DNA of 64,000 nucleotides, from the NCBI GenBank assembly GCA_018402155.1, contig JAGYJG010000001.1:1004198-1068197 (forward strand). Direction: 5' to 3'. The position numbers and the translations under genes were made by a program. Each line of letters starts with the position of its first letter. The first letter of the stretch is position 1. Below the pieces are notes generated by a model that was given only the letters and a program-made list of their open reading frames with translations, was not told the DNA's origin and ran no database searches. This DNA comes from Bacteroidia bacterium (lineage in GTDB: Bacteria > Bacteroidota > Bacteroidia > NS11-12g > UBA9320). Of this stretch, positions 6,225 through 50,520 are shown in pieces.

Positions 6225-6238
6225 AGTAAGACTATTGA

Positions 6239-7337: not shown

Positions 7338-7352
7338 ATAATGATTTCACCC

Positions 7353-14037: not shown

Positions 14038-14277
14038 GCAGTGCAAAGTAAAACATATTTTAAGGCTCTCTGCATTTTTTATGAATCGATATTTTTTTAC
14101 TTCGTTGCAGATTATACTCAATGCTTTCTTGTAAAAAACGCTACATCCTTACAATTCGAATTAAAACATACGATTTATCTATTCTGTGCTATAGGAATTT
14201 TTGACATACTCAATTTTAAGCTAATGTTAAGTAATGGTGTATCAAAAAGTGTATTTTCGAAGTTTAATTGGACACAT

Positions 14278-17200: not shown

Positions 17201-17691
17201 TTGAAAGAGATCAAATGACCGCCAATACCCTCTACAGAGATACGCTAAACTTAGGTTTGGGTTGCTACAAGCTTATAGTGGAAGATACCGATGGCGATGG
17301 ACTTAGTTTTTTTGCTAACAATGATGGATCTGGATTTTTCAGACTGTGGGAAGTAGGAGGAACTATGCTCAAAACACTGAACCCAGATTTTGGAAACAAA
17401 ACAGAACTTCAGTTTACGGTAGTGCACGCGCTAGATGTGCCCAAACATAAGATAGACTTGGGTTATGAACTTTATCCTAATCCTTCCCAAGGGGAATTTA
17501 CCGTGAGCGGAGGAGACCTGAAAGGAGCTACACATCATGTTTACAATAACTTTGGACAGAAAATAGTAGCACCATATACCAATAATGAGTGGTCTCTGAA
17601 ATACGATTTGAGTAATGAGCCAAGTGGAATATATACCATCCGCATAGAGAAAAATGGTGTACTGTGGACGCATAAAGTAATCGTACACTGA
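14278..17691 (+). CDS. secreted PNGase F-like protein with inserted LamG domain and T9SS type A sorting domain
   Basis: Signal peptide MNKQKVTLLGFLIVFGTFAMAQ; CGEWDYSCNTYI and GTWIYDRAGWCPSMATDVAEYDLT resemble PNGase F halves; LamG-like LHFDGKTTYVEA...TIDVWIKTD...KWHHVACVFSG; C-terminal YPNPSQGEFTVSGG...PSGIYTIRIEKNGVLWTHKVIVH. Start moved from 14041 to the ATG at 14278. Confidence 0.82.
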   Translation: MNKQKVTLLGFLIVFGTFAMAQDTIVVQALNYNTPTRDTIVNFPDGTESYSKILMRYAMRCKGARVSTGANRNLGCGEWDYSCNTYIEDPSRIDSFRASTPEYAILNFDGTTYSYKSTPVNSLYRNTRRTTTVVSKTDTSKGTILGAETESVAYILPTSNNPESGYAGKAYYLYTASELSAAGLQAGSISALSLISNNTSNIENLHVRIRKANNDTLAASNLETNGFISVFLDNLELNIGKNTLTFHTPFSWDGISNLVIEFTSNGRVNMLSNIESHRSDAGSSLVAFGGRKLHFDGKTTYVEADNYPGILGTQDRTIDVWIKTDKVNGEICSWGKDAPGQKWVFRVNGDGTLRTEVNGGGINGTTVITDNKWHHVACVFSGTNIAGIKHYVDGKLDPNGAVTPANINTVSDINVRISRGINNRYYKGELDEIRIWNVALSAAELQQVKNQLVVPQDPRIALHYQFNVVDETTVFCSANTPKKGTINGFIGYTNTRALAIFKDYFYSPFRPTLTLYGGNYDITTSTSVNYDTVPNLPNEVIRYAIQSRANTTEFDILKIAERLQKWDADKKTYYYDEAGLVYDSATVVSDGSITIKNLALIRRWPSRLEIMSFVTPYGIGLDLGPEGKSWTFDVTDFTPILKGNKRLFLGRGGENQEEMDIQFLFIKGTPAREVLDIRQIWPTQQYQPNYTQILANDVYFPPVNFRTMDIAKGFKIRSAITGHGQQGEFIPRNHFIKANDQTYMRSVWKSCGDNPIYPQGGTWIYDRAGWCPSMATDVAEYDLTQTIQGGENLLLDYGIENGQGDSRYIINNQLVSYGEYNFGYDLSIEDIIEPSNKVEHARSNPTCISPKMTVRNNGKNKVYNMTIDYWVNNRANKRTFTWECDMATGDVETVYFPIDNSVYSTGNAANNVFYAEITAIEGNTTADEYQANNVFQSPFELPEVYPKNFFLFYRTNNAPNENKVTLLDEWGKVVFERDQMTANTLYRDTLNLGLGCYKLIVEDTDGDGLSFFANNDGSGFFRLWEVGGTMLKTLNPDFGNKTELQFTVVHALDVPKHKIDLGYELYPNPSQGEFTVSGGDLKGATHHVYNNFGQKIVAPYTNNEWSLKYDLSNEPSGIYTIRIEKNGVLWTHKVIVH

Positions 17692-32787: not shown

Positions 32788-32871
32788 ATGAACTCAAAAG
32801 ATTTAAAAACACTTTTTGTTGTGCTACTTCTCAACGCGTTACTTCTTTTATTTTTATCGTTATCTCTCTAA
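32788..32871 (+). CDS. candidate 27-aa hydrophobic micro-protein
   Basis: ATG at 32788 gives MNSKDLKTLFVVLLLNALLLLFLSLSL* (stop 32869-32871); too short for the supplied track. Confidence 0.3.
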   Translation: MNSKDLKTLFVVLLLNALLLLFLSLSL

Positions 32872-34283
32872 TCAACTTTCTTTTTGAGCACTAAAAATCC
32901 CCATTTAGCGAGCATATTTTTTTCCTCGTCGTAGTTATAATCAAAGACAATATGATAATTGTTGAGTGAGGAAAGGGCTCGATTTACAACGACAGTATCT
33001 GCTCCTCCAAGATCTATAATAAACCGATACACTGAATTTTCACCGCGGTCTATGGTTAGTATATTTTCAGAAGTCATATCAGTATTGAATTCTATTTTAC
33101 TATTTATGGCAAGCGCTGGATTGGCTTTTATTTCATTCATCACCTTATAAAATTCAAAATGCTCTGCCGCATGAGGGGCGTCCCAGTTCACTTCATCTTT
33201 TCCAAAAAAACTCAATCTGTGATCTAGGCCAGCCTCTTGCCCAGTGTAAATAAGCGGCATCCCCCTAAGGGCGTAACTTAGCACTGCCATAGCCTTCCAT
33301 GATTCTGCTAGTCTTTCTTTTATAGTTCCATTCCAACTATTTTCGTCATGGTTAGTTATCATATTCATCGGAAAAACATGGGTACCATTTGCACTATCTT
33401 TCGAACGCATCACTTTTTCTACCTGAAAAGCATCAACCTCTCCAGCATATAATTTATTAAACACGTGGTGCATTTCCCACCCATAGTAAGCATCAAAAGC
33501 TGAGTCAAATTGATCTGGTTTGTGGGTTTCGCTTTCAGCTAGCATAAAGATAGGCTTGATTTTATCCAATGCTGTACGAGCTTGATTCCAAAAATCGGTT
33601 GGCACTTCCATGGCAACGTCGCATCTAAAACCGTCAAGGTCGCATTCAGTTATCCAAAACTGCATACTTTTTATCATTTCGGCACGCATTTCATAATTGT
33701 CATAGTTTAGGTCTGCCACATCTGTCCATCCCCAGCTTTTGCCATCATCACCTATCGGATCAGTTATTTTACCGGTACTATCGTGGGTATACCATTCTGG
33801 GTGTTCAGATATCCAATCGCTATCCCAAGAAGTATGATTTCCTACCCAATCTAGTATTACTTTTATACCCATTTCGTGGCACTTGGCTACTACACGTTTA
33901 AAATCTTCTAAAGTGCCATATCTCGGGTTTACATCGGTATAGTTAGATATAGAATATGGACTACCCCAGTATTTGTTATAATCTGGATAGGGCAGATCTT
34001 CTACAAAAGTATCACCTACGGCTTTTCTATTTCTTTTACCAATGGGCTGTATAGGCATAAACCACAGGATATCTACCCCAAGTTCTTTGAGCTTGGGTAG
34101 TCTATTTTCGAAGGCTTGAAGGGTACCTTCAGGCGTATATTGCCTTAAGTTCACCTCATAAATAGTGGCATTTTGTACCCAATCAGCTGGTAAGGATTTT
34201 GAGATTATTTCACTTCCATTTTTTTGTGGCTTAGCACAAGCTACACATGCAGTAGCTAGTAGTATATATAGGTGTTTTTTCAT
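32868..34283 (-). CDS. GH13 alpha-amylase family lipoprotein
   Basis: Lipobox ACVAC; GH13 motifs VILDWVGNH, DGFRCDVAME, LAESE, ITNHDENSW. Confidence 0.93.
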   Translation of the reverse strand: MKKHLYILLATACVACAKPQKNGSEIISKSLPADWVQNATIYEVNLRQYTPEGTLQAFENRLPKLKELGVDILWFMPIQPIGKRNRKAVGDTFVEDLPYPDYNKYWGSPYSISNYTDVNPRYGTLEDFKRVVAKCHEMGIKVILDWVGNHTSWDSDWISEHPEWYTHDSTGKITDPIGDDGKSWGWTDVADLNYDNYEMRAEMIKSMQFWITECDLDGFRCDVAMEVPTDFWNQARTALDKIKPIFMLAESETHKPDQFDSAFDAYYGWEMHHVFNKLYAGEVDAFQVEKVMRSKDSANGTHVFPMNMITNHDENSWNGTIKERLAESWKAMAVLSYALRGMPLIYTGQEAGLDHRLSFFGKDEVNWDAPHAAEHFEFYKVMNEIKANPALAINSKIEFNTDMTSENILTIDRGENSVYRFIIDLGGADTVVVNRALSSLNNYHIVFDYNYDEEKNMLAKWGFLVLKKKVD

Positions 34284-35497
34284 GATAATGTAGTGGTTTT
34301 TGTAAGGTTATATGTTGCAAATAATGAAATAAATAATGAACTAAGGGTAATGAATCCAAGCGATTCTGTAATATCTGATAGCCAATTACCAATAAACAAT
34401 TCAGAGGTAAACGTAATAAAAAATAATGGAATATAAAGTAGCCAAATAAGTCGCGAATTGTTAAGATTTTTATATAATAAAATTACAAGAGGAGTTAAAA
34501 AAACAAAGTAACATTTCCAAGCTAGCGGAGAAAAGACAGGGATAAAAGAAAGAACAATCAACCATTGAACAGCAAATCCATTTGTAATGTTTCGAGTATT
34601 GTAAAATCGAACAGCCACAAAAAACCCAATGAAAGCTATGACGACCAATGAAATAATCTTAGTTTGTGGGAGACTCAGTTCTGCAATATTGAATTGAAAA
34701 TCACCATAACGACTAGTTTCAGAAAATAGTCCACAAACGAAACTCCATAGTGATTGATTGAAGTGAATACATTGTAAACCCTGAGCTACCTGTTGGGTAT
34801 ACCACTGGATATAAAGTACGCTGCTTCCCTTTCCAAAGTAGGCGATTACCGCACTATATGTTACAATGAGACCTAATGCGGTATACGCCGATGTCTTAAA
34901 TTCTTTTTTGTATAGTAAAAAAGCAAATAAAATAAGAGGATAGGCTTTTGTACTAATGGCCAGAGCAAGGAGTAAACCCGCCCAAAAATACCTGCCACGA
35001 AGATGTAATATCAGGACTGCAATGCAGACTCCTAACAAGGTAACATTCACTTGAAGATTACTTATTTCTTCTATTAAAATACGAAAAGTAAGCAAAAATG
35101 GCACAATAAATTGTGGTGAGGTAAGCACTATTTCCGACTCAATTTTGGTGCTCAGTTTAAAAACCAATCTTTTTTGAAAAAAATATGAAAATGTCCACCG
35201 GAAAATATACCAATAGGTAATTAGTATCCCCAAAAGCCAAGTTAATCTAAGACCTACAAAGCTTATCCCATTTAGCCAATGAATAGGAATAGCAGCTAAA
35301 CTCATGAAAGGCGGCCAAGTATTTCGATGTTCACTATATATATACTGCTTTTCCCAGGCCAATCTACCTGCCTCTACATAACCCCCAAAATCGCCTTCTC
35401 TTTGTATATCGCGAGCAAGCTCTAGAAAGAGAAAAAAGCCCAAAACAACTGTAATAAAAACAGCTATTTGGTACTGATATTTACGCGCAAAATCCAT
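34280..35497 (-). CDS. polytopic membrane glycosyltransferase, GT87 / DUF2029-like
   Basis: Many hydrophobic helices; RDIQREGDFGGYVEAGRLAWEKQYIYSEHRNTWPPFMSLAAIPIHWL and STKAYPLILFAFLLYKKEFK as in GT-C/DUF2029 proteins; overlaps the GH13 gene by 4 bp. Confidence 0.7.
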   Translation of the reverse strand: MDFARKYQYQIAVFITVVLGFFLFLELARDIQREGDFGGYVEAGRLAWEKQYIYSEHRNTWPPFMSLAAIPIHWLNGISFVGLRLTWLLGILITYWYIFRWTFSYFFQKRLVFKLSTKIESEIVLTSPQFIVPFLLTFRILIEEISNLQVNVTLLGVCIAVLILHLRGRYFWAGLLLALAISTKAYPLILFAFLLYKKEFKTSAYTALGLIVTYSAVIAYFGKGSSVLYIQWYTQQVAQGLQCIHFNQSLWSFVCGLFSETSRYGDFQFNIAELSLPQTKIISLVVIAFIGFFVAVRFYNTRNITNGFAVQWLIVLSFIPVFSPLAWKCYFVFLTPLVILLYKNLNNSRLIWLLYIPLFFITFTSELFIGNWLSDITESLGFITLSSLFISLFATYNLTKTTTLS

Positions 35498-35504
35498 GAC
35501 CTGA

Positions 35505-37760
35505 TTATTTCGTTGACAATACAGTCACTTTATATGTCCAAGATGCTTTATTAAATGATACCTCTACCTCATTTTTAAAGTATTTACGTTTGTAAGCTAA
35601 CGTCTTGTCTGTATTTTCTACAATCACCAAATCTCCATAAACTAAAGCAAGGTTATCGTTTCGTATTTGCGCTAAATTTGCTATCTCTTTTTGCAATGCA
35701 ACTTCTTGTTCTTCCAAATTTTCAAATCGCATCATCCTTCGATTATCTGGATCTCCCGCCCCTGCCATTCCTATTTCGTCTCCATAATATATGATTGGAA
35801 TACCCGGTATAGTCAAGTTAAACGCATTGAACATAGCCATTTTTTGATAGGCTAGTGAATCTTGGACTTCTATGGTTTGTTTCCACCCCATACGTTTATG
35901 CTCCATAGTCGAAGAGCTTAGACTCAATGTACCATCTGCATAGCTTATAAATCGAGGTTTATCCTGGTTTCCAGTAATATTTCCCATGAGGTGGTGCGAG
36001 CCATAAGTGTTCAGACTAGCTTCTAATGCGTGCCCAAGTCGAGTCATAGATTCTTGCTCAGTGGCAAATACAGGTAAAGCATTGTCATACATATTAAAAT
36101 CGAACTGCGCATCCAACAATCCAGAGCCTATATAGCTGTCTATGAGGTCATATGTTCCATACGTTTCGCCTATTTGGTATATATACTTACCTTTTTCTTG
36201 GCTTACTTTTTTCACTTTCTTATTGAGTGTGCGCCAAAAATTATTAGGTATATGCTTGGTGGCATCATGACGAAAACCATCAAAATCGTATTCCGTAATC
36301 CAATGCAGTGCTGAGTCTACCATGAAATCTGTCACTTGTTGATCCATCAAATTTAGGGTAGGCAAAAACGTATCAAACCATGTGGTGAGTCTATGGCTAT
36401 CCCAGTTTTCAGTATTCATAGTGCCATCTTCAAAGTAAAGTGATGTCACCCAGTCTTTGTGTTTCTGATATACGGGGTGTTGCTCATGCACGTGGTTAGC
36501 TACATAGTCTAATAGCACACTCAATCCGTTATTGTGTGCGGTACGTAGCATTTCTCTCACTTCCTCTGGTGTACCTAGTCTGTAATCTACCGTAGTACTG
36601 GTGATAGGCCAATAGCCGTGATAGCCACTAAATTTAGTGTCAGGATCGCTAAATTGCCCCCATGCATCAGTTGGGTTTTGGGTAATCGGGGATATCCAAA
36701 TCGTATTTATCCCTAAATCTCTAAAATATCCTTGATTTATTTTTTGCGTTATCCCTGCTATATCTCCTCCGAAGTACTGTGCCTTTTGAAGTATTTCAGG
36801 ATTATTTACCCGTGTGTCATTCTTTGGGTCTCCATTTACAAATCGGTCTATCATCATAAAATACATAATGCTGCTATGCCAGTCATTGTTATTTAATTTT
36901 TTAGCATCAGTAATTACGATTCCTTTTTCTAGAGGTATCAGTAAGTCATTACTCACAGCGTCTTGATTGTATCCAAAAATTCGGATATGAGAACGATTTG
37001 TATGTTTAGCAAAGACAGGAATTAGGAGTGTAAAATGATTACCATCTTTTATAGTTTCTATGCTGAAGTTATTCCAATAAGCGTAAATATTATCGGTATT
37101 TACAGAAGAAATCACGATTTCATTGGTTGAAAAAGATTCGGTTACAATGGACGGTATTAGCTCTTTGGGAGGTCCCGAAACCTCAAGCACATTATTTAAT
37201 CCACCCATGCCGTTACTTACTTTAATGGGATTACTTGGGTCATCTATTTCTTTACCATCGGCTACGAGCTTGTATTGATACTTTCCAGGCTTGACATTAA
37301 ATTGGGCTATCCAATGATTATGATCAGACTTAATGAGCTCGGTTTGGGAAGCATCCCAGTTGTTGAACTCACCTTTTACCCTTACCGACGAATAATCCTC
37401 TTTGAAGTCTACGAATAGTTCTGCAAGTTTAGTTTTCTTTCCTTTCACCAAGATAGAATAAGGAATACCTTCAGCGTAAATGGTAAGATTACTTAGTGGC
37501 TTTGCATTTTTACTTACTAAGTATAGATTAGTCGTATCCAACGATATCATAATGGCATCATCTGAAACGACAGAATCAATTTTTACAGGACTATCAAAAT
37601 AATCAGCAATAACTACAACGGTAGTATCACCTACCAACTGAATAGGAGAGGCCAAACCAAAGAGCTTAGAACCCTCTGAAAGAGACGTATTTTTTGAGCA
37701 TCCTGATGCCAAAATAAGAAAAGTAATTGCAAGAACGATTGACTTAGTTAAATGGTGCAT
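35505..37760 (-). CDS. GH13 alpha-amylase/cyclomaltodextrinase-like lipoprotein with N-terminal glycogen-binding-type domain
   Basis: Lipobox LASGC; SVRVKGEFNNWDASQTEL...PGKYQYKLVADGKEIDDPSNP (E-set/CBM48-like); SVLLDYVANHVHEQHP, FDGFRHDATKHIP, IGETYG, GNQDKPR. Confidence 0.93.
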   Translation of the reverse strand: MHHLTKSIVLAITFLILASGCSKNTSLSEGSKLFGLASPIQLVGDTTVVVIADYFDSPVKIDSVVSDDAIMISLDTTNLYLVSKNAKPLSNLTIYAEGIPYSILVKGKKTKLAELFVDFKEDYSSVRVKGEFNNWDASQTELIKSDHNHWIAQFNVKPGKYQYKLVADGKEIDDPSNPIKVSNGMGGLNNVLEVSGPPKELIPSIVTESFSTNEIVISSVNTDNIYAYWNNFSIETIKDGNHFTLLIPVFAKHTNRSHIRIFGYNQDAVSNDLLIPLEKGIVITDAKKLNNNDWHSSIMYFMMIDRFVNGDPKNDTRVNNPEILQKAQYFGGDIAGITQKINQGYFRDLGINTIWISPITQNPTDAWGQFSDPDTKFSGYHGYWPITSTTVDYRLGTPEEVREMLRTAHNNGLSVLLDYVANHVHEQHPVYQKHKDWVTSLYFEDGTMNTENWDSHRLTTWFDTFLPTLNLMDQQVTDFMVDSALHWITEYDFDGFRHDATKHIPNNFWRTLNKKVKKVSQEKGKYIYQIGETYGTYDLIDSYIGSGLLDAQFDFNMYDNALPVFATEQESMTRLGHALEASLNTYGSHHLMGNITGNQDKPRFISYADGTLSLSSSTMEHKRMGWKQTIEVQDSLAYQKMAMFNAFNLTIPGIPIIYYGDEIGMAGAGDPDNRRMMRFENLEEQEVALQKEIANLAQIRNDNLALVYGDLVIVENTDKTLAYKRKYFKNEVEVSFNKASWTYKVTVLSTK

Positions 37761-37777
37761 AGTGTCATTTTTACCCT
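37761..37777. promoter_or_regulatory. candidate operator, copy 1 of the AGTGTnAwwwTTACrCT palindrome
   Basis: AGTGTCATTTTTACCCT, abutting the start codon of the GH13 gene. Confidence 0.6.
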
Positions 37778-37810: not shown

Positions 37811-40030
37811 TTAACTCAGTATTTCTATGCCTTGTTTTGTGACAGACACGTTTTTTACCTCTCCTCTAAAACGTATTTTAAAAGAAAAACTTTTCCAGTT
37901 TTCGGGTAGAAAAGGTTTGAAGGAGAGTTCACCATTTTTAACCCGCATACCGGCAAATCCTTTGACAATGCTCATCCATGTGCCCGCCATACTGGTAATA
38001 TGTAGGCCATCTCTTGTATCGTTATTATAGTCATCTAAATCTAATCTTGCTGTTCTGAGATAAAATTCATAAGCACGTTTTTCATCGCCTAGTTTTGCTG
38101 CTAAAATACTGTGAACACAAGGGCTGAGAGAAGACTCGTGAACAGTAATGGGCTCATAAAAATCATAATGTTTGCGGTGTTGCTCATCGGAGTATTCATC
38201 TTCAAAGAAATAGAAACCTTGGAGTGTATCTGCCTGTTTTATGTAACAACTACGTAGTATCCTGTCCCAGCTCCAGTGCTCTACGATAGGGAGTTGACTA
38301 GTAGGTAGGTTTTTCACTGGTATTAGTTCTTTGTCTAGGAAACCGTCTTGTTGTAAGAAAACGCCGTACTTCTCGGAGAAAGGATAGTACATATTTTGGG
38401 CTATTTCTTCCCATTTTTCTCCTTCTTTTTCGTCCAATGCTGTGATTTCTAAAATACGAGCGAAGTCACTTGCATAGTGATGTTTTACCCAGGCCAAAGA
38501 CTCACTAGCATAGCTCATACACCAAGCTGCTATTTTATTAGTATACCAGTTGTTATTAACATTATTTTCAAACTCATTTGGTCCAGTAACGCCCAGTATT
38601 ACGTATTGCTCACGATCTTCGCTCCAATTTACTCGTTGCGCCCAAAAACGTGCGATTCCTATGAGTACCTCCAAACCATATTCGGCTAAATATTTTTTGT
38701 CTCCGGTATAGCCTATATAGTCAAATATTGCATAAGCTATTGCTCCGTTTCGGTGTATTTCTTCAAAAGTTATTTCCCACTCGTTATGGCATTCTTCGCC
38801 ATTCATAGTCACCATAGGATAAAGCGCTGCACCACCTGAAAACCCTAATTTTTGTGCATTTTCTATTGCTTTTTGCAAGTGTTTGTGACGATAGATGAGT
38901 AGATTTCGCGCTACTTCTTGGCTAGCGGTGGCTTGATAAAATGGTAAGCAGTAAGCCTCTGTATCCCAATAGGTACTTCCACCGTATTTTTCACCAGTAA
39001 AACCTTTGGGACCTATATTTAAGCGTTCGTCTTCACCCGTATAGGTGCAGTTTAATTGAAAAATATTAAAACGGATAGCCTGCTGCGCAGAGATGTCTCC
39101 TTCTATTATAATATCACTTTCTTCCCACTTTGCAGCCCAAGCTCCCTTATTTGCGAGAAGCAAATCCTTAAAACTGCGGTATTTTATACTCTCTATTTCT
39201 GCGTGTATCGTAGTTTCTATATCTTCTGGTGCTATATCCAAACTAGAAACTATAACAGCGCGCTTTTCTACCACTACTTGTTGCCCGTTTTTGGCATTAA
39301 AAACAGTTGCAATTTTAGCTGTTTTTTTATTGCAATCGCTGGTGATGAAAGGTATATTCTTACCATCGTACTGCACATTTGTATGGGTCTCTACTCCTAC
39401 TTGAAATTTGGTCTTTTTGGTTTCAGTAATTACCATACAAGCATTGCCTCCTGCATGTGTTTTTATACCATTCCAAAATTTTTCATCGTAGTTAGAATCT
39501 TCATTACTCACATTGCCGTATATATATGATGCTATTTTTATTTCTGCATCGTGATCTAAAGAAAAAGAATAGCTAAAAGCAGCTTGCCTACTATCACTCA
39601 AACTACAAAAACGCTCTACCTTCGCTTTTACAGTTATGCCATTGTTTAGGGTAGTGGTAAAGGTGCGCAGTAGTACACCGGTTTGCATATCTAATGAGCG
39701 ACAAAACTCTTTGACCTCTGTTTTATCAAGATTTAGCGACTCACCATTGATACGTATATTAATTCGCATCCAATTGGGAGCATTTAGAACCTTAGCAAAA
39801 TATTCTGGATATCCATTTTTCCACCAGCCCACGCGAGTTTTATCCGGATAGTATACTCCTGCAACATAGTTACCTTGCAAACTATCGCCGGTATATTTCT
39901 CTTCAAAATTAGCCCGCTGGCCAAATTTACCATTTCCAAGACTAAAAATACTTTCAGATATCCTGTTTAAGCTAGGGTCAAAACCCTCTTCTACGATATG
40001 CCAAGGGTGATGTTTTATGTAGTTTTTCAT
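37811..40030 (-). CDS. glycoside hydrolase family 65 (maltose phosphorylase-like)
   Basis: PWHIVEEGFDPSLNRISESIFSLGNGKFGQRANFEE; GEKYGGSTYWDTEAYCLPFYQ; NGEECHNEWEITFEEIHRNGAIAYAI (catalytic Glu region). Confidence 0.93.
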   Translation of the reverse strand: MKNYIKHHPWHIVEEGFDPSLNRISESIFSLGNGKFGQRANFEEKYTGDSLQGNYVAGVYYPDKTRVGWWKNGYPEYFAKVLNAPNWMRINIRINGESLNLDKTEVKEFCRSLDMQTGVLLRTFTTTLNNGITVKAKVERFCSLSDSRQAAFSYSFSLDHDAEIKIASYIYGNVSNEDSNYDEKFWNGIKTHAGGNACMVITETKKTKFQVGVETHTNVQYDGKNIPFITSDCNKKTAKIATVFNAKNGQQVVVEKRAVIVSSLDIAPEDIETTIHAEIESIKYRSFKDLLLANKGAWAAKWEESDIIIEGDISAQQAIRFNIFQLNCTYTGEDERLNIGPKGFTGEKYGGSTYWDTEAYCLPFYQATASQEVARNLLIYRHKHLQKAIENAQKLGFSGGAALYPMVTMNGEECHNEWEITFEEIHRNGAIAYAIFDYIGYTGDKKYLAEYGLEVLIGIARFWAQRVNWSEDREQYVILGVTGPNEFENNVNNNWYTNKIAAWCMSYASESLAWVKHHYASDFARILEITALDEKEGEKWEEIAQNMYYPFSEKYGVFLQQDGFLDKELIPVKNLPTSQLPIVEHWSWDRILRSCYIKQADTLQGFYFFEDEYSDEQHRKHYDFYEPITVHESSLSPCVHSILAAKLGDEKRAYEFYLRTARLDLDDYNNDTRDGLHITSMAGTWMSIVKGFAGMRVKNGELSFKPFLPENWKSFSFKIRFRGEVKNVSVTKQGIEILS

Positions 40031-40046
40031 TCAAAAAGAACTATTT

Positions 40047-40697
40047 TCAATACAGCTTTTTAAAAATTTCTAGATCGGCATCAAGCCAACTATTTATTTG
40101 TATTTGCGCACCTTTCAGACCTTTATCTTGACCAAAAAGTACAGATTTCATGCCTGCCTTTTTTGCAGCAGTAAGTCCCGCCTGAGAGTCTTCTATGACC
40201 AAACAGTTTTCTGGAGATACTTGTAGTTTTTCTGCAGCCAGTAAAAAAATATCCGGTTCAGGTTTCGAATTTGGGGTCATGCCTCCATCTACTATGGCAT
40301 GAAAAGCAAGCACAAGGTCTAGTTTATCTATAATGCGAATAGCATTTTTGCTGCTAGAGCCTACGGCTACTTTTAAGCCTACACCTTTAGCTAGGGCATT
40401 AAAATTTTTAAATCCTTCAAAAACCTCATCTGGATTCATTGTATCTATAAACTCCAAATACATTTGGTTTTTTTTATGGAGTAAATGCTGCTTATCCGCT
40501 TCAGATATTCGTGAATTGCTCCATTTCAGAATTTTATCTAACGATTCCTTTCTTCCAACACCTTTAAGTTTTTGGTTTTGTTTTTCGGTGAGGTTATAAT
40601 CCAACTGACCACCTACCCATTTCCAACTTTTATAATGGTATTTGGCAGTGTCAGTGATTACACCATCTAAATCGTAAATACAGGCTTTTAGGCTCAT
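40047..40697 (-). CDS. pgmB: beta-phosphoglucomutase
   Basis: HAD motif ACIYDLDGVITDTAKYHYKSWK, GVGRKESLDKIL, AVGSSSKNA, VIEDSQAGLTAAKKAGM. Confidence 0.95.
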   Translation of the reverse strand: MSLKACIYDLDGVITDTAKYHYKSWKWVGGQLDYNLTEKQNQKLKGVGRKESLDKILKWSNSRISEADKQHLLHKKNQMYLEFIDTMNPDEVFEGFKNFNALAKGVGLKVAVGSSSKNAIRIIDKLDLVLAFHAIVDGGMTPNSKPEPDIFLLAAEKLQVSPENCLVIEDSQAGLTAAKKAGMKSVLFGQDKGLKGAQIQINSWLDADLEIFKKLY

Positions 40698-41554
40698 GAG
40701 ATTTGTTTTGTTTCGGTTGTGTGATACAAAGCTAAGGGTTCGATAGGTCGCCGCTCTACTTTGCCGAGGGTAAAATTATGATTTTCTGCAATTTCTGCTA
40801 ATACATCTTTAAAATAATATGCAACCGAACCTACAAAATTTACCGGAACCTCCCGAAAATTTTCATAGCACCACACATGTATATTTACGAATTTAACTAA
40901 TCCTTCATAAACCATACGCTTAAAATACGGATGATTCTTATGTTTACCTATAAAAGGCATAAAGGCGGCTAAATAGACATTTGGATTCTCTTTTTTGTGT
41001 ACAGCCTCAAAAATACCTTCTTTGGTCAAATTGTATTCTTGGCCAAAATCAGAAGCTAGCTCCTGTGGCATGCGTTTATAAAGCCATTCTGAAAGCATTA
41101 TTTTTCCAAAGTATGAGCCACTCCCCTCATCTCCCAGAATATAGCCTAATGCTGGTACTTCTTCGTGCACTTTTTCGCCATCAAAATAACAGGAGTTTGA
41201 TCCGGTACCTAAAATACAAGAAATTCCTTTTTCGCCCTGCGAAGTAGCAAGTGCAGCACCAGTAAGATCATGATCTACTTTTACATCTGTTGCACTACTA
41301 AAAAACGATCGTAATCCTTTGGCTACTATCTCATTGCGTGGAACACTGGAACAACCCGCACCATAGAAATAAACCTCTTTTATTTCGCTTTTTAGTTCAG
41401 ACAAGAGTTCGTTATCAGCCAATTTCTGTTCTATGAGCTCTGTACTGTGAAAAAATGGATTAAAACCCATCGTGCTAGTTGTGAATTGATTGCTCTTTTC
41501 ATCTATTGCCAACCAATCACATTTGGTTGAGCCACTATCTGCCACTAAAATCAT
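40694..41554 (-). CDS. BadF/BadG-type ATPase / N-acetylglucosamine kinase-like sugar kinase
   Basis: LVADSGSTKCDWLAID, CILGTGSNSCYFDG, GYILGDEGSGSYFGK; overlaps pgmB by 4 bp. Confidence 0.85.
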   Translation of the reverse strand: MILVADSGSTKCDWLAIDEKSNQFTTSTMGFNPFFHSTELIEQKLADNELLSELKSEIKEVYFYGAGCSSVPRNEIVAKGLRSFFSSATDVKVDHDLTGAALATSQGEKGISCILGTGSNSCYFDGEKVHEEVPALGYILGDEGSGSYFGKIMLSEWLYKRMPQELASDFGQEYNLTKEGIFEAVHKKENPNVYLAAFMPFIGKHKNHPYFKRMVYEGLVKFVNIHVWCYENFREVPVNFVGSVAYYFKDVLAEIAENHNFTLGKVERRPIEPLALYHTTETKQIS

Positions 41555-41582
41555 TTTATGTTCCTAAATTGCAAGCAAACTT

Positions 41583-41599
41583 AGTGTAAAATTTACACT
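41583..41599. promoter_or_regulatory. candidate operator, copy 2 of the palindrome, between divergent genes
   Basis: Perfect palindrome AGTGTAAA-A-TTTACACT. Confidence 0.7.
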
Positions 41600-41653: not shown

Positions 41654-42400
41654 ATGAGAGAAAAAATCAAAAATCAAACAAATCCAAATGTATCGGTTGA
41701 CTGCGTGGTCTTTGGTTTTGACGGTACAGATTTGAAGGTGCTTCTCGTACAACGAGAACTGCGAGACAATCTAAATATAAATGATGATACCCTTGTCCTT
41801 CCTGGCGATTTAATTAATGACAACGAAGACCTAGATGATGCAGCCTCAAGGATTCTTACCGGCCTCACAGGTATACGAAATATTTTTTTAGAGCAAATAG
41901 GTGCATTTGGACATCCACAGCGATTAATGAAAGAACGAGACCAAGTGTGGCTCAGAGCTATACGATTGGAACCTAGTGCACGAGTAATAACAGTTGGTTA
42001 TTTTGCACTTATAAATATTAAAAATTACAAGGTAAAGCCAGCAGGTTTTGCCAAACACATACTTTGGCACGACTACGATACTGTAAATGAATTAGGCTTT
42101 GATCACAAACTGATACTTGATACTGCCATTGCCAAATTGCGCAATAAGCTCTACAGAGAGCCCGTCGGTTTTCAGCTTTTGAGTAAAGAATTTTCAATCA
42201 ATCAACTCTATACACTCTATAATGAAATTATGGGAGGAGAAATAGACCGAAGAAACTTTAGAAGAAGAATGCTCAAAACTGGATTTTTAAAAGAAACTGA
42301 CAATTTTCAAGAAGGAGTTCCACATAAGCCAGCTCGGCTTTATACATTCGTACGCAAAGAATTTGATAACGTAAGTAAAAATAATTTCAAATTTTATTAA
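41654..42400 (+). CDS. Nudix-related transcriptional regulator (NrtR/AraR-like: Nudix-fold domain plus winged helix)
   Basis: VDCVVFGFDGTDLKVLLVQREL... degenerate Nudix box PGDLINDNEDLDDAASRILTGLTGI; C-terminal wHTH FRRRMLKTGFLKETDNFQEGVPHKPARLYTF. Start moved from TTG 41600 to ATG 41654. Confidence 0.85.
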   Translation: MREKIKNQTNPNVSVDCVVFGFDGTDLKVLLVQRELRDNLNINDDTLVLPGDLINDNEDLDDAASRILTGLTGIRNIFLEQIGAFGHPQRLMKERDQVWLRAIRLEPSARVITVGYFALINIKNYKVKPAGFAKHILWHDYDTVNELGFDHKLILDTAIAKLRNKLYREPVGFQLLSKEFSINQLYTLYNEIMGGEIDRRNFRRRMLKTGFLKETDNFQEGVPHKPARLYTFVRKEFDNVSKNNFKFY

Positions 42401-42405
42401 TTAAG

Positions 42406-43800
42406 ATGAGTCCTAGAAAACCGCAATTAAGCTTTTGGCAAATTTGGAATATGAGTTTTGGATTCTTAGGTATCCAATTTGGTTTTGCTTTACAAGGAGG
42501 TTTTATGTCCAAGATTTTTTTGAACCTGGGTGCAGAACCACATGATATACCAGGCCTATGGATAGCTGCTCCCCTAGCAGGACTGATTGTTCAGCCTATT
42601 ATTGGTTATTTGAGTGATAGAACCTGGAGTACGCGCTATGGAAGACGAAAACCGTACTTTTTAGTCGGAGCAATTTTAGCTTCTATCGCTTTGTTTTATA
42701 TGCCATATAGCCCTTTGCTATGGATCGCAGCTGGCAGTTTACTATTGCTAGATGCCTCTATCAACATTAGTATGGAACCCTTTAGGGCTTTAGTAGCAGA
42801 TAAGCTCGACGAGTCTCAGCGTTCGTATGGTTTCTTAGTACAGACACTAATCATAGGTATAGGTACGTGGGTAGCAAGCCAATTGCCAAGATTTGTTACC
42901 TACCTTGGCGCTAGTGACGTTGCTCCTGACGGCATTATTGCATCCAATATAAAAATAGCCTTCGCTATTGGAGCCGCTGTTTTCTTAATTTCCATTATTT
43001 ATACCATTTATACTACAGATGAATATCCCCCCGAAAATATTGACGAATTTTACAAAGAAAAAGAGGCAACAAAAGGTTTTACCCACGCGGTAAAAGATAT
43101 TATTGGTAATATTATAAATATGCCGCTTACTATGAAAAAACTTGGAGTGGTTCAGTTTTTCTCGTGGTTTGCTTTTTTTACGATGTGGAGTATGGCTACT
43201 CCTGCAATTACTTCCCATGTATACAATACGCCAAGTCCTGTGAGTGAAAATTTTGATTTACAAAACCAAACAGACAAACTAAAATACGAAAAAGAAACTG
43301 CAGCATTCAATAAATCTGCTGACCTTGCCGGCTCTGCTATGGGCACCTACGGTCTATCTTCTATGGTTTTTGCTTTTATTCTGTCATTTATTACCAGCAA
43401 AAAGACCATCAATAGAAAATATGTACATATGGTGAGTTTACTATTGGGCGGAGTTGGTTTTTGCGCCATGTATTTTGCCACTACCACAGCTCACCTCAAT
43501 GGATGTTATGCACTTATCGGAATAGCATGGGGCAGTATTTTATCACTGCCATACGCCATGCTCAGCAGCTCTATTGACCCTAAAAAAATGGGTGTGTTTA
43601 TGGGGCTGTTCAATATGTTTATAGTACTGCCCCAAATAGTAGCTGCCATAGGTGGCATAAATCTTTTATCTTCAATGTTTGGAGCAGGAGATATTAACCC
43701 GATGTTACTTGCAGGAAGCTCGCTGATACTTGCAGGATTTTTTAATATGCTAATAACCAACAAAAAGGCAATTCGGTATCAGCCTGAAACAAATGTATGA
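42406..43800 (+). CDS. MFS sugar transporter (SLC45/maltose transporter-like)
   Basis: FGFLGIQFGFALQGGFMSKIFLNLGAEP...IGYLSDRTWSTRYGRRKPYFLVGAI...LLLLDASINISMEPFRALVAD. Confidence 0.92.
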   Translation: MSPRKPQLSFWQIWNMSFGFLGIQFGFALQGGFMSKIFLNLGAEPHDIPGLWIAAPLAGLIVQPIIGYLSDRTWSTRYGRRKPYFLVGAILASIALFYMPYSPLLWIAAGSLLLLDASINISMEPFRALVADKLDESQRSYGFLVQTLIIGIGTWVASQLPRFVTYLGASDVAPDGIIASNIKIAFAIGAAVFLISIIYTIYTTDEYPPENIDEFYKEKEATKGFTHAVKDIIGNIINMPLTMKKLGVVQFFSWFAFFTMWSMATPAITSHVYNTPSPVSENFDLQNQTDKLKYEKETAAFNKSADLAGSAMGTYGLSSMVFAFILSFITSKKTINRKYVHMVSLLLGGVGFCAMYFATTTAHLNGCYALIGIAWGSILSLPYAMLSSSIDPKKMGVFMGLFNMFIVLPQIVAAIGGINLLSSMFGAGDINPMLLAGSSLILAGFFNMLITNKKAIRYQPETNV

Positions 43801-44594: not shown

Positions 44595-45776
44595 TTACTT
44601 TTTAGTAACTGTAATGCTTTTAGTTTCAGCTGCTGCGTCTATAACGAATACAATATCGTAAGTTCCATCAGCTTTTGCTTGCATATTTCCACCATTATCT
44701 TGAATATCAGCTGCATCTGGTCCTCCGATGATGTCACTAAAGCCCTCATTTATATCATCCCAAGTGCCTTGCGTTCTTAGTTTAAAACCTCCAGTGCTCA
44801 AAAGTTCAACACCATTGTAGGTCCAAGTATAAGTGTTGCCATCTTTAGTTGGAGTAGTTGCAAACAACTCTCCGTCCCAGTTACCATTTTTTACACCGTC
44901 ACCGATTAGTCCAACTACCACTGCAGAATAATCTCTAGAAGGAAGGTCACCTGTTCTGGTTAGTTTCGCAGTGTGTCCAGCGCCCGCAGTCCAAGTAATA
45001 GACAAGTCATAAATACCACTTTTGTCTAGTTTAAAATTAGGACCTCCGGCTTCAAGAGCGTCTAAAGTACCACCAAAGTTTGCATTAAATTTCAGCCCTT
45101 TTTGATCATTTCCAAGATCCAAAGTAGAATCAAGTTCTACTTTCCATCCGTTAGAGTAGCGAAATTTCCACTCACCGCTGCTCATTTCTGCACCAGACAC
45201 ACTCCACGTCATAGTGTTCATGTCAAACGCACTTGCAGTAAGACGAGTATCATTAGACCATCCACCTGGAGTGGCTGCACCTATAACTCCCCAGTCTACT
45301 TTCACAATAGCACCTTTTCCAGTTTCGGTATCGATAACTATGTGGTAAAGACCGTCTTCAGCTACGGTAAATTTGGTGTCAGTGGTAGCGATTGCACCAC
45401 GTTGAATACCAGAAGGCTCGTCGTTTCTGGCATCAGAGGCTGCAAAATCAGCTCCAGGACCCCAAGTAGTTCTCTCAGCACCAGCTACTTGTACAATGTT
45501 AAATCCTTCACCTGCTTTCACAGCTGCAAAGATTTCTAACAATTCTGCACGTTCTTCTTGCAATACCTCATTTCGTGTTTTGGTTAAAGTTGCTTTAATG
45601 TCAAATCCACTGTATGCTGTAGATGGGCCTTGTAGGTAAAAGCCATCTTCTACTAGCACGTTTTCTCCACCTGGAGTTACTTCTTCATCGTCTTTGCACG
45701 AGTTTAGTGTAATTACACCAAATAGCGCTGCTGCGATGGCAAGCATTTTCATTGATTTTAATACTAAATGTTTCAT
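44595..45776 (-). CDS. SusE/SusF-like outer-membrane starch-binding lipoprotein
   Basis: Lipobox LNSCKDDEE; repeated SusE/F-like starch-binding modules (TWSVSGAEMSSGEWKFRYSNGWKVELDS; TYTWTYNGVELLSTGGFKLRTQGTWDDINEG). Confidence 0.85.
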   Translation of the reverse strand: MKHLVLKSMKMLAIAAALFGVITLNSCKDDEEVTPGGENVLVEDGFYLQGPSTAYSGFDIKATLTKTRNEVLQEERAELLEIFAAVKAGEGFNIVQVAGAERTTWGPGADFAASDARNDEPSGIQRGAIATTDTKFTVAEDGLYHIVIDTETGKGAIVKVDWGVIGAATPGGWSNDTRLTASAFDMNTMTWSVSGAEMSSGEWKFRYSNGWKVELDSTLDLGNDQKGLKFNANFGGTLDALEAGGPNFKLDKSGIYDLSITWTAGAGHTAKLTRTGDLPSRDYSAVVVGLIGDGVKNGNWDGELFATTPTKDGNTYTWTYNGVELLSTGGFKLRTQGTWDDINEGFSDIIGGPDAADIQDNGGNMQAKADGTYDIVFVIDAAAETKSITVTKK

Positions 45777-45827: not shown

Positions 45828-47294
45828 TTAAAAGTCTAAATTTGGATTGGCATCTATAGCCCACTGAGGTATTGGAAACGTTGTTCGCTCTGGACCGCTA
45901 GCTGTTTTTTCCCACCAAGCGTTTCCAAATTTTCCAAAGCGGATTAAGTCTTGTCTTCGATGTCCTTCACAAAACAACTCTCTGCCTCTTTCTGCCAATA
46001 TTTCGTCCAATCCGAAACCACTAGCAGCACCAGCATTTGCTCTATCTCTTACGTCTTGCACCCATTTATCTCCGGCTCCTGGGCCTCCATTTCTGATGGC
46101 ACATTCCGCTTTCATTAGTAGTATGTCTGCGTATCTAAAAACAGGAAAATCATTGTTCATATTTTCCTCAGCCCCTTTTTCTATTTCATATTTTTTTACA
46201 CGTGCTCCACTCATACGTATTTCCGCAGATGTATTCCCAGCTCCCATTACTAGAGCAGGTATTTCTGGAGTTAAAATCAAACTTTCTCCAGCTGTTTGGT
46301 CAAATAAATCTGCACCAGATGCACTTTTTTGTTGGCCAACTAAAAACCATTCCGTCTTGCGTTTATCTCCATCTGCATAGCTTTTGTAGTGGTTTTCTAG
46401 GGCGGCAAACCCATTCCAAGGTTCTACAGCCATTTCAAAAGTATTATTGCTCAAGTAGTGAAGTGTTCGCATATGTAAACGGAATCCAGGGGCATCAAAT
46501 TCGTCGAACAAAATGGTAAAAATATTTTCATTTACGGCAACGTTATTAGCTGCAAATGGAGCGGTAACCGTGTTATCTAGCGAGTATATACCCAAATCTA
46601 TCACACTATCGCACATAGCCTCGGCTTTGTCGTATGCAGGTGTACCTGTATACACTTCCGCATTTAAATATATTTTGGCGAGAAGGGTATATCCCATACC
46701 CCTGCTCACTGCAAATTTATTGGCGCTAAGTGGTAGCAACGGTATACTTGATTTCAGGTCTTCTACCAAAAAATTATAGATTTCTTGTCGCTTAGCTTTA
46801 GTAGGAGCTTCTGGTGCGTTTTTGAAAGAGGTAATTAATGGTACATCTCCATAATTATCCATTAATAAGTACAAGAAAAAAGCGCGAAGTGTTTTCAGTT
46901 TGGCTATGCTTTCTGCAATACTTGGATCAGCGGCCTCATCTTCCAAAAGGTCCAAAAGTTTGTTTGCCTCTCTCACCCCGTCGTACATATGGCTCCACAT
47001 GGAGTTTATTGCATCTACATCATTGGTCCACTCGTGAGTGTGTAGCACTCGCCATTTTCCGCCATCGTTCCAGTCATTTCCACGTACAGGAAATGCTATT
47101 TCATCGCTAGTAACTTCTTGTGCCCAAAACCACCATCCTGCGTCATCTATCAAATCTCTAAGCTCAGCGTACACTACTCCCGGGTCTGGTTTTGCGGTTG
47201 ACGTAGCGTCATACAATGCGTCATCAAATTTTGTACATGAGAACGAGCCAAGAAGCATAGCTACTAGAAGAATTGATTTAAATGTATTTTTCAT
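45828..47294 (-). CDS. SusD/RagB-like outer-membrane lipoprotein
   Basis: Lipobox GSFSCTKFDD; C-terminal FPVFRYADILLMKAECAIRNG...LDEILAERGRELFCEGHRRQDLIRFGKF. Confidence 0.96.
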   Translation of the reverse strand: MKNTFKSILLVAMLLGSFSCTKFDDALYDATSTAKPDPGVVYAELRDLIDDAGWWFWAQEVTSDEIAFPVRGNDWNDGGKWRVLHTHEWTNDVDAINSMWSHMYDGVREANKLLDLLEDEAADPSIAESIAKLKTLRAFFLYLLMDNYGDVPLITSFKNAPEAPTKAKRQEIYNFLVEDLKSSIPLLPLSANKFAVSRGMGYTLLAKIYLNAEVYTGTPAYDKAEAMCDSVIDLGIYSLDNTVTAPFAANNVAVNENIFTILFDEFDAPGFRLHMRTLHYLSNNTFEMAVEPWNGFAALENHYKSYADGDKRKTEWFLVGQQKSASGADLFDQTAGESLILTPEIPALVMGAGNTSAEIRMSGARVKKYEIEKGAEENMNNDFPVFRYADILLMKAECAIRNGGPGAGDKWVQDVRDRANAGAASGFGLDEILAERGRELFCEGHRRQDLIRFGKFGNAWWEKTASGPERTTFPIPQWAIDANPNLDF

Positions 47295-47307: not shown

Positions 47308-50304
47308 TTAAAAAGAGGTATTTACACCTATACTTATACTTTGAGTTCTAGGATAAACGTCATATTGGTCTCTACCAAACTCAGTACCGCTAAAATTAAG
47401 TTCAGGATCTAATCCTGAGTATTTGGTCCACATCCAAATATTGTTACCTGTTAAAAAGACTCTCAGGTTTCTTATTTTACTTTCTTTTTTAAAGGGTATA
47501 TTATAACCAAGAGAGATATTATCTAGTTTGATGAAATCACCATCCTCGAGGTAATAAGTGCTAATAGTAGGATCACTCGTTATGTTTGCATTAGTACCTT
47601 CTATGGCTGACGCTAATACATTTTGGTTTGGTGCATCTGCAGGATTACTAAACACCATTTTGGTTACATTAAATATCTGGTGCCCAAAAATTCCTCGCAG
47701 AGCAAAACTAGCATCAAATCCTTTGTAAATTCGAAAATAATTTGACCAGCCAATGATAACATCCGGTTGTGCACTCCCTACAAATTGTCTTTGAGCACGG
47801 GTTACATCCCGAGTGACTCCACCTGCCTCAGTTTCAAACAAGAATTTTCCGTCGGCTGAAAACCCTGCAAAAACTGGCAAAAAGAATGACCCTATTTCGT
47901 GTCCGGGCAGTATCACTTGTGTAAAGTTATCGCCCCCTACAAGCCCTCTACCCGAAACATAGAGCTTTTTAATTCCCAAACTATTCGCTTCTAGATTTCC
48001 TAGAGTTATTGTTTCTTGTTTATTGGTAGAAGCTGCAAGTGTAGTTTTCCATTCGAAATTTTTCTTTCTTACAACTACAGCATTCACGGTAAGCTCTAAT
48101 CCTCTGTTTCTAATTTCACCAGAATTTTCAAATTTCAATGGTGCTATATTCGGCGGTATTGGCACAGCTACTTCCATTACTAGACCTGTAGTAGTTTTGT
48201 TGTAAAGCTCTAGTGAGCCTGTGATTCTGTTTTTGAATAAACCGAAATCTAATCCAATATTTACTTCGTTTACTTCTTCCCAAGCTAAATTAGGATTTGC
48301 AATATTGCCGCGATTATTGTTCCAAAAAATAACTTCTTCTCCAGTTTCAGAGTCTATACCTTTACTAGTTGGTTGGTACCGTACTCTATCTATATCACTT
48401 GGTATATCAGCATTTCCGGTAAGTCCATAACCTACTCTGAGCCTAAGGTCTGACACCTTGGTAAGATTTTTCATGAAATTTTCCTTCTTGATATTCCAAG
48501 CCCCAGAAACAGCCCAAAAAGTACCCCACTCTACATCATCGCCGTATTTGGTAGATTTGTCTCTTCGAAGCGAAGCAGTAACGTAGTATTTCTTATCAAA
48601 ATCATAAATAGCTCTCGAAAAAAGTGAGGCTAAACCTACAGGAGTATTCCTAAAAGAAGAAGCATACCCCCACTCTAGTTGACTGTATGCACCAAGATTG
48701 TCTGCTCCCACACTTTCATAAAAGGGATCAATGTTTCGTGCCTCAGCTCTAAAACCTTCTTGATACTCATTTTGCCAACTGTGCCCGCCTATCACATTTA
48801 AACTGTGTTTTTCTTGAAAAGTAGTAGTGTAGCTTAGTATTTCTGAGAGGTAAGCATACCGCTTATTGCCATAGCTTCTGCTCGCCAAACCATTGGTTCT
48901 ATTACTAAATGCTGATGCTGGCTCTGCGTACCAAGACTGCTGATCGTCTCTACCTAATGCACCTGTTACCCGAGCTTGTAGTTTATCTGTAATATCATAG
49001 CTTAAATCTACATTAGCCAAAAATCTTTTTGCATCACGAGTATTTGTGATTTGATCAATCATAGCCACAGGATTATTATACTGAAAATTTCTATCTGTCT
49101 CAAAAAACTCACCTGGAGCGCTAAAAACAGGGTCGGTAGGCGATCTACGCATAGCTTGGTAAATCACATTTTTTGGGTCGCTACCTCCATCATATTTCAC
49201 GTAGTTATTTTCTTCTAAGGTAGCACTTACTCTTGCAGAAACAATAAGTTTATCATTTAAAGCCTTTTGAGCTATGTTAAAACGAGCAATGTTTCTTGTT
49301 TTATCCGTTCCTTTGATAACACCTGTGAGCGAGTTGGAGGAAATAGAAAAACGGTAATTTGTATTTTCATCACTTTTGCTAATCGCCACAGTATGTTGCT
49401 GGGATATGCCTGTTCTATATATTTCGTCTAGCCAATCTATATTGCCGCCATTATCTTTAAAATTTGCATTATTTGTTTTCGCTGCATACGCTCTTAATTC
49501 ATCTCCACTCAAAAAATCAAGTCGATTGGCCACTCGATCAAAGGATACAAAGTTATTGTACTCTACGCGAACTTGATCCGAGGTTCTTCCTCCAGCAAAA
49601 CTCCCTCCTTTGGTAGTTATAATAATAACACCATTACTACCTTGAGTTCCATATAATGAGGTAGATGCAGCATCTTTTAACACGTTAAATGAAGCAATAT
49701 CATCAGGATTTAAAGTAGTCGGATCTACACCAATAACTCCGTCTACAACATAAAGTGGACCCGTACCTCCGGTAATACTTGCACTACCACGAATATTGAC
49801 ACTAAAACCCGCATTAGGGTCTCCTCCTTGCTTGGAGACGTTCACACCTGCTGCTTTACCTTGCATACCTTGTATTGGGTCAGTAATCATACCCTTATTT
49901 AGCTCTTCTGCACTTACTTGTGTTACTGCACCTGTTTTGTCACTTTTTCTCTGAGTTCCGTAGGCTATCACTAATACTTCATCCAAATCATCATCTGAGA
50001 CAAGTTTTACATCAAATAACGTTCGATTACCTAAACTCAAAGTTTGCTCTTTATAGCCCACAAAAGAGATAGTTATGGCCGAAACACCCGAAACAGCACT
50101 CAGATTAAACCTACCTTTTTCGTCGGATATAGCTCCACCACTTCCACCTACTGGCTTTACATATGCTCCCACCAAAGGCTCAGATGTTTTACTATCCGTT
50201 ACAGTTCCAGAAATAACTGTTTGTGCAGAAACACAAAATCCAATCAAAACTAAAGCAAATGTTCCTAGTAAGCTTGCTTGAGCTTTTAGTACTTTTATTC
50301 TCAT
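47308..50304 (-). CDS. SusC/RagA-family TonB-linked outer-membrane protein
   Basis: VISGTVTDSKTSEPLVGAYVKPVG; IAYGTQRKSDKTGAVTQVSAEEL; PLYVVDGVIGVDPTTLNPDDIASFNVLKDAASTSLYGTQGSNGVIIITTK. Confidence 0.97.
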   Translation of the reverse strand: MRIKVLKAQASLLGTFALVLIGFCVSAQTVISGTVTDSKTSEPLVGAYVKPVGGSGGAISDEKGRFNLSAVSGVSAITISFVGYKEQTLSLGNRTLFDVKLVSDDDLDEVLVIAYGTQRKSDKTGAVTQVSAEELNKGMITDPIQGMQGKAAGVNVSKQGGDPNAGFSVNIRGSASITGGTGPLYVVDGVIGVDPTTLNPDDIASFNVLKDAASTSLYGTQGSNGVIIITTKGGSFAGGRTSDQVRVEYNNFVSFDRVANRLDFLSGDELRAYAAKTNNANFKDNGGNIDWLDEIYRTGISQQHTVAISKSDENTNYRFSISSNSLTGVIKGTDKTRNIARFNIAQKALNDKLIVSARVSATLEENNYVKYDGGSDPKNVIYQAMRRSPTDPVFSAPGEFFETDRNFQYNNPVAMIDQITNTRDAKRFLANVDLSYDITDKLQARVTGALGRDDQQSWYAEPASAFSNRTNGLASRSYGNKRYAYLSEILSYTTTFQEKHSLNVIGGHSWQNEYQEGFRAEARNIDPFYESVGADNLGAYSQLEWGYASSFRNTPVGLASLFSRAIYDFDKKYYVTASLRRDKSTKYGDDVEWGTFWAVSGAWNIKKENFMKNLTKVSDLRLRVGYGLTGNADIPSDIDRVRYQPTSKGIDSETGEEVIFWNNNRGNIANPNLAWEEVNEVNIGLDFGLFKNRITGSLELYNKTTTGLVMEVAVPIPPNIAPLKFENSGEIRNRGLELTVNAVVVRKKNFEWKTTLAASTNKQETITLGNLEANSLGIKKLYVSGRGLVGGDNFTQVILPGHEIGSFFLPVFAGFSADGKFLFETEAGGVTRDVTRAQRQFVGSAQPDVIIGWSNYFRIYKGFDASFALRGIFGHQIFNVTKMVFSNPADAPNQNVLASAIEGTNANITSDPTISTYYLEDGDFIKLDNISLGYNIPFKKESKIRNLRVFLTGNNIWMWTKYSGLDPELNFSGTEFGRDQYDVYPRTQSISIGVNTSF

Positions 50305-50325: not shown

Positions 50326-50342
50326 AGTGTTAAAATTACGCT
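50326..50342. promoter_or_regulatory. candidate operator, copy 3, just downstream of the susC promoter
   Basis: AGTGTTAAAATTACGCT within the larger near-palindrome CTTAGTGTTAAAATTACGCTAAG (50323-50345). Confidence 0.65.
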
Positions 50343-50356
50343 AAGTAAACTTTCCA

Positions 50357-50386
50357 CAAATATATGTTCAGTTGTGAATACCGCAA
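50357..50386 (-). promoter_or_regulatory. predicted susC promoter
   Basis: On the minus strand: TTG-N19-TATATTTG, matching the Bacteroidota -33/-7 pattern. Confidence 0.65.
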
Positions 50387-50503: not shown

Positions 50504-50520
50504 AGTGTCATTTTTACACT
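50504..50520. promoter_or_regulatory. candidate operator, copy 4, upstream of the T9SS amylase
   Basis: AGTGTCATTTTTACACT. Confidence 0.65.

Follow-up and report, generated by a model that had tools for sequence, protein, structure and literature searches.

The gene at positions 41654-42400 of the window (the whole 64,000-nucleotide stretch of DNA analysed here) encodes a Nudix-fold protein placed among genes for maltose and starch use, and the question raised by this locus is which genes the protein controls and to what signal it responds. The preliminary description of the locus had proposed a regulator whose non-catalytic Nudix domain would sense maltose, glucose or a glucose phosphate. 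Our analysis indicates that the protein is probably a catalytically dead Nudix-fold regulator acting in an AraR-like manner on alpha-glucan genes through AGTGT-N7-ACACT sites, from which a sugar would release it. The genes of the locus are the following.

32868-34283, minus strand: GH13-type alpha-amylase-family enzyme (NCBIfam alpha-amylase-family models matched, all below cut-off)
35505-37760, minus strand: GH13 alpha-amylase-family enzyme (Pfam)
37811-40030, minus strand: GH65 maltose phosphorylase (NF010380, 1127 bits; best PDB match 1h54, 1e-232)
40047-40697, minus strand: beta-phosphoglucomutase pgmB (TIGR01990 above cut-off; PDB 3nas, 1e-50)
40694-41554, minus strand: BadF/N-acetylglucosamine-kinase-like sugar kinase, likely glucokinase (profile matches, solved relatives)
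41654-42400, plus strand: Nudix-fold transcription regulator of group A (defined below), NrtR/AraR/XylR family (Pfam; best PDB match BtAraR; AlphaFold/Foldseek match AraR)
42406-43800, plus strand: MFS/GPH-type sugar transporter, probably in one transcript with the regulator gene (profile matches)
44595-45776, minus strand: SusE/SusF-like outer membrane protein (Pfam)
45828-47294, minus strand: SusD-like protein (Pfam)
47308-50304, minus strand: SusC-like TonB-dependent receptor (Pfam)
50561-53323, plus strand: T9SS-secreted GH13/CBM48 alpha-amylase-family enzyme (Pfam)

The gene coordinates confirmed that the kinase, pgmB and GH65 genes run divergently from the regulator gene, as previously described. 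A gap of 5 bp separates the end of the regulator gene from the start of the MFS gene, and the suggested co-transcription of the two is probable. Likewise, the scanned ORFs of the window included no regulator of the LacI, AraC or SusR type, as had been stated; the sole further transcription factor found in the window was an ECF sigma factor (7353-7844), whose gene lies 34 kb away beside a FecR gene. The segment containing these two genes (3672-7844) continues with a large ORF that lacks annotation, together with a DUF4249 gene. The product of positions 14041-17691 is large and carries a T9SS sorting tail besides two domains, one laminin-G-like and one PNGase F C-terminal-like. A gene for a GT87-family membrane glycosyltransferase (34280-35497) lies within the GH13/GH65 operon; it is kept in the related locus L044 and absent in several relatives. 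Neither a ROK or Glk family glucokinase nor a second kinase of the BadF/N-acetylglucosamine-kinase-like type was found in the genome, so the locus kinase is likely the glucokinase; GlcNAc is a possible substrate too, as kinases of GlcNAc and MurNAc are among the relatives with solved structures.

The 248-residue translation of ORF 41654-42400 (+) showed the architecture previously ascribed to it, with a NUDIX domain (residues 12-83, 2e-4) followed by an NrtR-type winged helix (NrtR_WHD, 172-232, 7e-22; AraR_C, 170-243, 4e-12), NUDIX and NrtR_WHD both scoring above the Pfam cut-off, as fits a member of the NrtR family in the broad sense. Alignment with the Nudix box GX5EX7REUXEEXGU placed the segment R66-I-L-T-G-L-T-G-I74 at the catalytic motif. 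The replacement of REuxEE by RILTGL was thus verified: the three catalytic glutamate positions are occupied by I67, G70 and L71, and R66 and G73 are kept. A box devoid of catalytic glutamates likewise fits membership of the broad NrtR family, and the proposal of a sensor domain that has lost its catalytic residues is supported. It is no peculiarity of this regulator, as a degenerate Nudix box is the rule in AraR and the box is impaired in NrtR (PMC4666351). In a sequence search of the PDB, the arabinose regulator AraR of Bacteroides thetaiotaomicron (BtAraR) was the best match (3e-36), with NrtR behind at 4e-10, and an AlphaFold model built from 48 homologs (pLDDT 88) matched AraR entries best when compared with the PDB by Foldseek. 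In addition, the DNA-contact helix reads DRRNFRRR in the regulator and DKRNFRKR in BtAraR. Judged by its sequence, the protein is a member of the NrtR-family branch of sugar regulators that includes AraR and XylR, within which it belongs to a clade of its own. The preliminary description was right to name AraR among the known Nudix transcription factors, and its list has to be extended with XylR (BT0791), a further sugar-linked regulator of the NrtR family (PMC3878776, PMC4666351).

The 2.49-Mb genome encodes one paralog of the regulator, 40% identical to it, and the homologs in related genomes split into group A (the type of the regulator) and group B (the type of the paralog). A wider scan yielded 80 loci, mostly in metagenome assemblies, from Flavobacteriales (Crocinitomicaceae, Cryomorpha ignava, Lishizhenia) and other Bacteroidota; no homolog was found in the viral contigs scanned. 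The kinase was the immediate divergent neighbour in at least 76 of 97 unique group A loci, and GH65 and pgmB were each nearby in at least 62 of the 97, these counts being lower bounds because of contig ends. No arabinose genes were found at the regulator and group A loci, whose neighbours are kinase, pgmB, GH65, GH13 and Sus genes, nor did the comparison used find xylose genes at group A loci. In the tree, all 37 group A proteins included formed one clade (support 0.81), nested in a node of support 0.955 with three further proteins (L268, L275 and L278). Two of these, L275 and L278, adjoin genes of 494 and 442 aa, which in L275 encode xylulokinase and xylose isomerase; the sister of the group A clade is a group linked to xylA/xylB. 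Elsewhere in the tree, outside the group A clade, lie BtAraR and the paralogs of group B. Since some deeper nodes are weak (one of 0.43), the order of branching is best not read in detail.

Inspection of the intergenic regions revealed a likely operator for the regulator, AGTGT-N7-ACACT, as detailed in the following sites.

37761-37777, unstranded: weaker site resembling the operator, AGTGTCATTTTTACCCT, preceding the GH13 gene 35505-37760 (one arm mismatch; counterpart at the same place in L044)
41576-41583, minus strand: -7 box TAAGTTTG of the kinase operon, Bacteroidota-type TAnnTTTG (one base overlaps the operator edge)
41583-41599, unstranded: main operator AGTGTAAAATTTACACT, a perfect palindrome between the regulator and kinase genes (core GTGT-N7-ACAC kept in 91 of 99 unique group A loci)
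50326-50342, unstranded: susC operator, reading AGCGTAATTTTAACACT on the strand of the gene (the -7 box lies 14 bp upstream of it)
50357-50386, minus strand: susC promoter TTG-N19-TATATTTG (only TTG-N19-21-TAnnTTTG match within the window)
50504-50520, unstranded: operator AGTGTCATTTTTACACT (upstream of two genes, by 40 bp for the secreted GH13 gene and by 199 bp for susC; counterpart in L041)

The GTGT-N7-ACAC core was present upstream of the regulator gene in those 91 of 99 unique group A loci vs a mean of 0.31 in single-base shuffles, although the loci come mostly from metagenome assemblies and are mutually related, so that the counts are not independent trials. Alternative spacings from 3 to 13 between GTGT and ACAC were found in 0-8 of these loci each, and the runner-up among all 256 half-sites in 16; the operator arms were constant and the inner bases variable. 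The crystal operator of BtAraR has the identical GTGT-N7-ACAC spacing (PMC4666351, Table 2), and both this operator and the conserved contact helix were found for the regulator. The site is no common property of the homologs, being present in 2 of 26 group B genes and 11 of 42 members of a phylum sample, and we found none in 18 sampled homologs with a DKPNF helix, where Pro replaces the Arg that intercalates in AraR, a correlation drawn across related sequences. The conserved operator and the conserved gene pairing support the proposed role of the protein as a regulator of the adjacent alpha-glucan genes.

With respect to promoter geometry, the kinase -7 box was at the same offset to the operator in 19 of the 91 loci. 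Counterparts of the susC operator occurred at the same distance with exact arms in L041 and with one mismatch in L043, and the whole susC promoter/operator arrangement is repeated in L041. Relatives also carry additional operator sites at GH13, MFS and susC genes. An operator that overlaps the kinase -7 box and another that follows the susC -7 box argue that the kinase-pgmB-maltose phosphorylase operon and the starch susCDE genes are repressed.

Operator sites beyond the locus were surveyed by genome-wide pattern searches. Five exact sites were found, two in the locus, two inside large ORFs and one in the intergenic region upstream of pckA; the two off-locus sites within ORFs were dismissed as chance matches, together with two 2-mismatch sites also inside ORFs. 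The pckA operator was present in the genome of the window and in one close relative (G000 and G006), with identical arms (CTTAGTGT/ACACTAAG) and diverged middle and flanks. Allowing up to one mismatch, it was detected in 16 of 20 sampled genomes of a sister family; among the other genomes, 2 of the 14 that have group A carried it, a low share that counts against the regulatory model proposed below, and none of the 13 taken to lack group A did (Fisher p 6e-4, relatedness being ignored). Furthermore, an amino-acid-dehydrogenase-like gene (L367-L383) was preceded by AGTGT-N7-ACACT in 17 of the 18 sister-family genomes that have group A, as against none of the 6 that do not; the product matched amino-acid dehydrogenase models, the best being tryptophan dehydrogenase ScyB, below cut-off. 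Malic enzyme was rejected as a general target, its sites being restricted to 3-4 close relatives. A 539-aa sister-family neighbour, taken for a transporter by its length, was rejected as such, since the L069 example matched ABC_tran twice plus ABC_tran_Xtn and resembles an ABC-F ATPase; there is hence no obvious sugar transporter there, as judged from the one example scanned.

These sites raise the possibility, which we put forward tentatively, that the Nudix sensor serves parts of the Bacteroidota as a switch of central carbon metabolism, with glucose or a hexose phosphate as its signal; there it would repress the kinase, maltose phosphorylase and starch-uptake genes and control pckA and, in one sister family, the amino-acid dehydrogenase, a role resembling that of Cra or HexR. 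Somewhat unlikely, by our judgement, is that the sister-family pckA and dehydrogenase sites belong to the group B paralog, group A controlling alpha-glucan and kinase genes alone. In most sister-family paralogs the helix reads DVRNF or DTRNF, and two paralogs carry GTGT-N7-ACAC before their own gene, as such an ownership would predict; however, the paralog of the window's genus, with its DKPNF helix, lacks a site of this kind before its gene, and G000 and G006 nevertheless carry pckA sites. Moreover, G062, in which only a group A protein was found, has both the pckA and the dehydrogenase sites.

Regarding the signal itself, the polar contacts of arabinose in AraR are made by R34, R86 and H131 (PMC4666351). 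These residues correspond to R34, R90 and H151 of the regulator, which are invariant in an alignment of 22 group A proteins, whereas Gly48 and Phe49 of AraR are replaced by Asp52 and Leu53. Two pocket-loop segments are longer than those of AraR, NrtR and group B (29 vs 25 and 34 vs 19 residues), and the second holds W99 and R104, also invariant in the 22-protein alignment; a basic residue in this loop could contact a phosphate. A separate clade of Nudix regulators (L247, L251, L255) adjoins kinases of the locus-kinase type, and the neighbours of L247 (pfkA, the kinase and the glyceraldehyde-3-phosphate dehydrogenase gene gapA) suggest control of glycolysis.

A maltose-specific sensor, in which maltose imported by the MFS transporter would fill the enlarged pocket and free the repressor from DNA, appears unlikely. 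The locus does contain maltose phosphorylase, pgmB, the MFS transporter and starch Sus genes, and the two loop insertions could accommodate a disaccharide, but the kinase is a steadier partner than GH65 (76 vs 62 of 97 loci, a difference blurred by contig ends), it occurs without a nearby GH65 at some loci, and the operator before pckA points to a signal nearer to central metabolism, perhaps not maltose but glucose or a hexose phosphate. The pocket features, the sole likely glucokinase and the L247-type clade together favour, without proving, the same choice. Of the ligands originally put forward, glucose or a glucose phosphate would therefore fit at least as well as maltose, which is partly supported, and a glucose or hexose-phosphate effector is the more likely one. 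Apart from a ligand drawn too narrowly, the preliminary reading is largely upheld.

The family, the fold, the conserved operator, its overlap with a promoter and the conserved gene set were shown by computation, and from them we infer a model in which the sugar-free regulator would be a dimer whose winged helices grip the AGTGT-N7-ACACT sites. So bound, it would block the kinase-pgmB-maltose phosphorylase-GH13 operon, susCDE and the amylase genes, and probably also repress its own gene and that of the MFS transporter; binding of the sugar in the Nudix pocket would make it leave the DNA. From the start of the pckA operator it is 159-170 bp to a conserved TAnnTTTG box downstream, and a site so far upstream of the predicted promoter is a misfit with simple repression; there, the ligand-free regulator may activate or act by looping. 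That the apo-protein turns on its targets and is no repressor would agree with this activator-like position, but is improbable given the blocking position of the kinase and susC sites, which overlap the -7 box or sit just downstream of it. Finally, a true NrtR controlling NAD genes in response to ADP-ribose, with the maltose locus a coincidence, would share the architecture and the weak match to the NtrR equivalog model, but is very improbable, because that ADP-ribose-responsive model gave 106 bits, far under its cut-off of 400, AraR is nearer in sequence and fold, the sugar-gene context is conserved and no NAD gene was found at the five exact operator sites of the genome, as the preliminary description would expect.

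Among known systems, BtAraR (BT0354; PDB 5bs6, 5dd4, 5ddg, 5deq) is like the regulator in its Nudix sensor with impaired box, winged helix, GTGT-N7-ACAC operator, three polar sugar-contact residues and control of catabolic and SusCD genes, and differs in its arabinose instead of alpha-glucan targets, separate clade and shorter pocket loops. Bacteroides XylR (BT0791, NrtR family) is likewise a sugar-linked Nudix regulator, with a xylose gene context; BT0791 itself lies outside the tree, in which the xylA/xylB-linked L275 and L278 form the close sister lineage of group A. The longer second pocket loop of group A is common to L268, L275 and L278 (shared node of support 0.955), whereas another xylA/xylB-linked group (L243, L260) lacks this extension. 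The Shewanella NrtR (PDB 3gz5, 3gz6, 3gz8), which answers to ADP-ribose and controls NAD genes (PMC4666351), shares domain architecture and fold with the regulator and is farther from it in sequence and fold than AraR. SusR of B. thetaiotaomicron also controls starch-use genes and binds maltose (PMC3878776). Unlike the regulator, it is a membrane-bound activator with periplasmic sensing, and the two proteins are unrelated. Proteobacterial Cra/FruR and HexR are LacI- and RpiR-family proteins, not Nudix proteins; if the pckA part holds, they would resemble the regulator in that one sensor of a sugar metabolite ties sugar breakdown to gluconeogenesis.

No Nudix or NrtR-family regulator of starch, maltose, glucose, alpha-glucan or gluconeogenesis was found in the literature searched, a scope outside which most subscription papers and regulon databases lay, and the AraR and XylR papers were its only relevant matches. 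Sugar-linked Nudix regulators were thus found described for the pentoses arabinose and xylose only, which does not establish the priority of a glucan version. The protein is most likely a sugar-responsive DNA-binding switch for starch and maltose use, and perhaps gluconeogenesis, in many little-studied Bacteroidota. If so, a dead nucleotide hydrolase fold would have been re-tuned from ADP-ribose to pentoses and to hexoses in a widespread glucan/glucose version. The control of starch use could then be tested at this point in genomes of Crocinitomicaceae, Cryomorpha and related Bacteroidota, many of which are uncultured; a link to pckA, if true, would add gluconeogenesis, for which the same searches found no such regulator described.

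Other Nudix regulators were observed next to different sugar genes. The sister regulator L268:5850-6584, with its longer second pocket loop, adjoins genes for a LamB-type porin, a sugar-isomerase-like protein, a PfkB kinase and an MFS transporter. Group B (L036:9260-9958 (-); genome C1:1331277-1331933; L078, L081, L087) has a DKPNF recognition helix in the window's genus, and palindromes of the type TTTTACTTAAAGTAAAA precede its genes in other genomes of that family; the group B gene of L081 adjoins GH16, GH30 and sugar transporter genes, which suggests a beta-glucan regulator with another operator.
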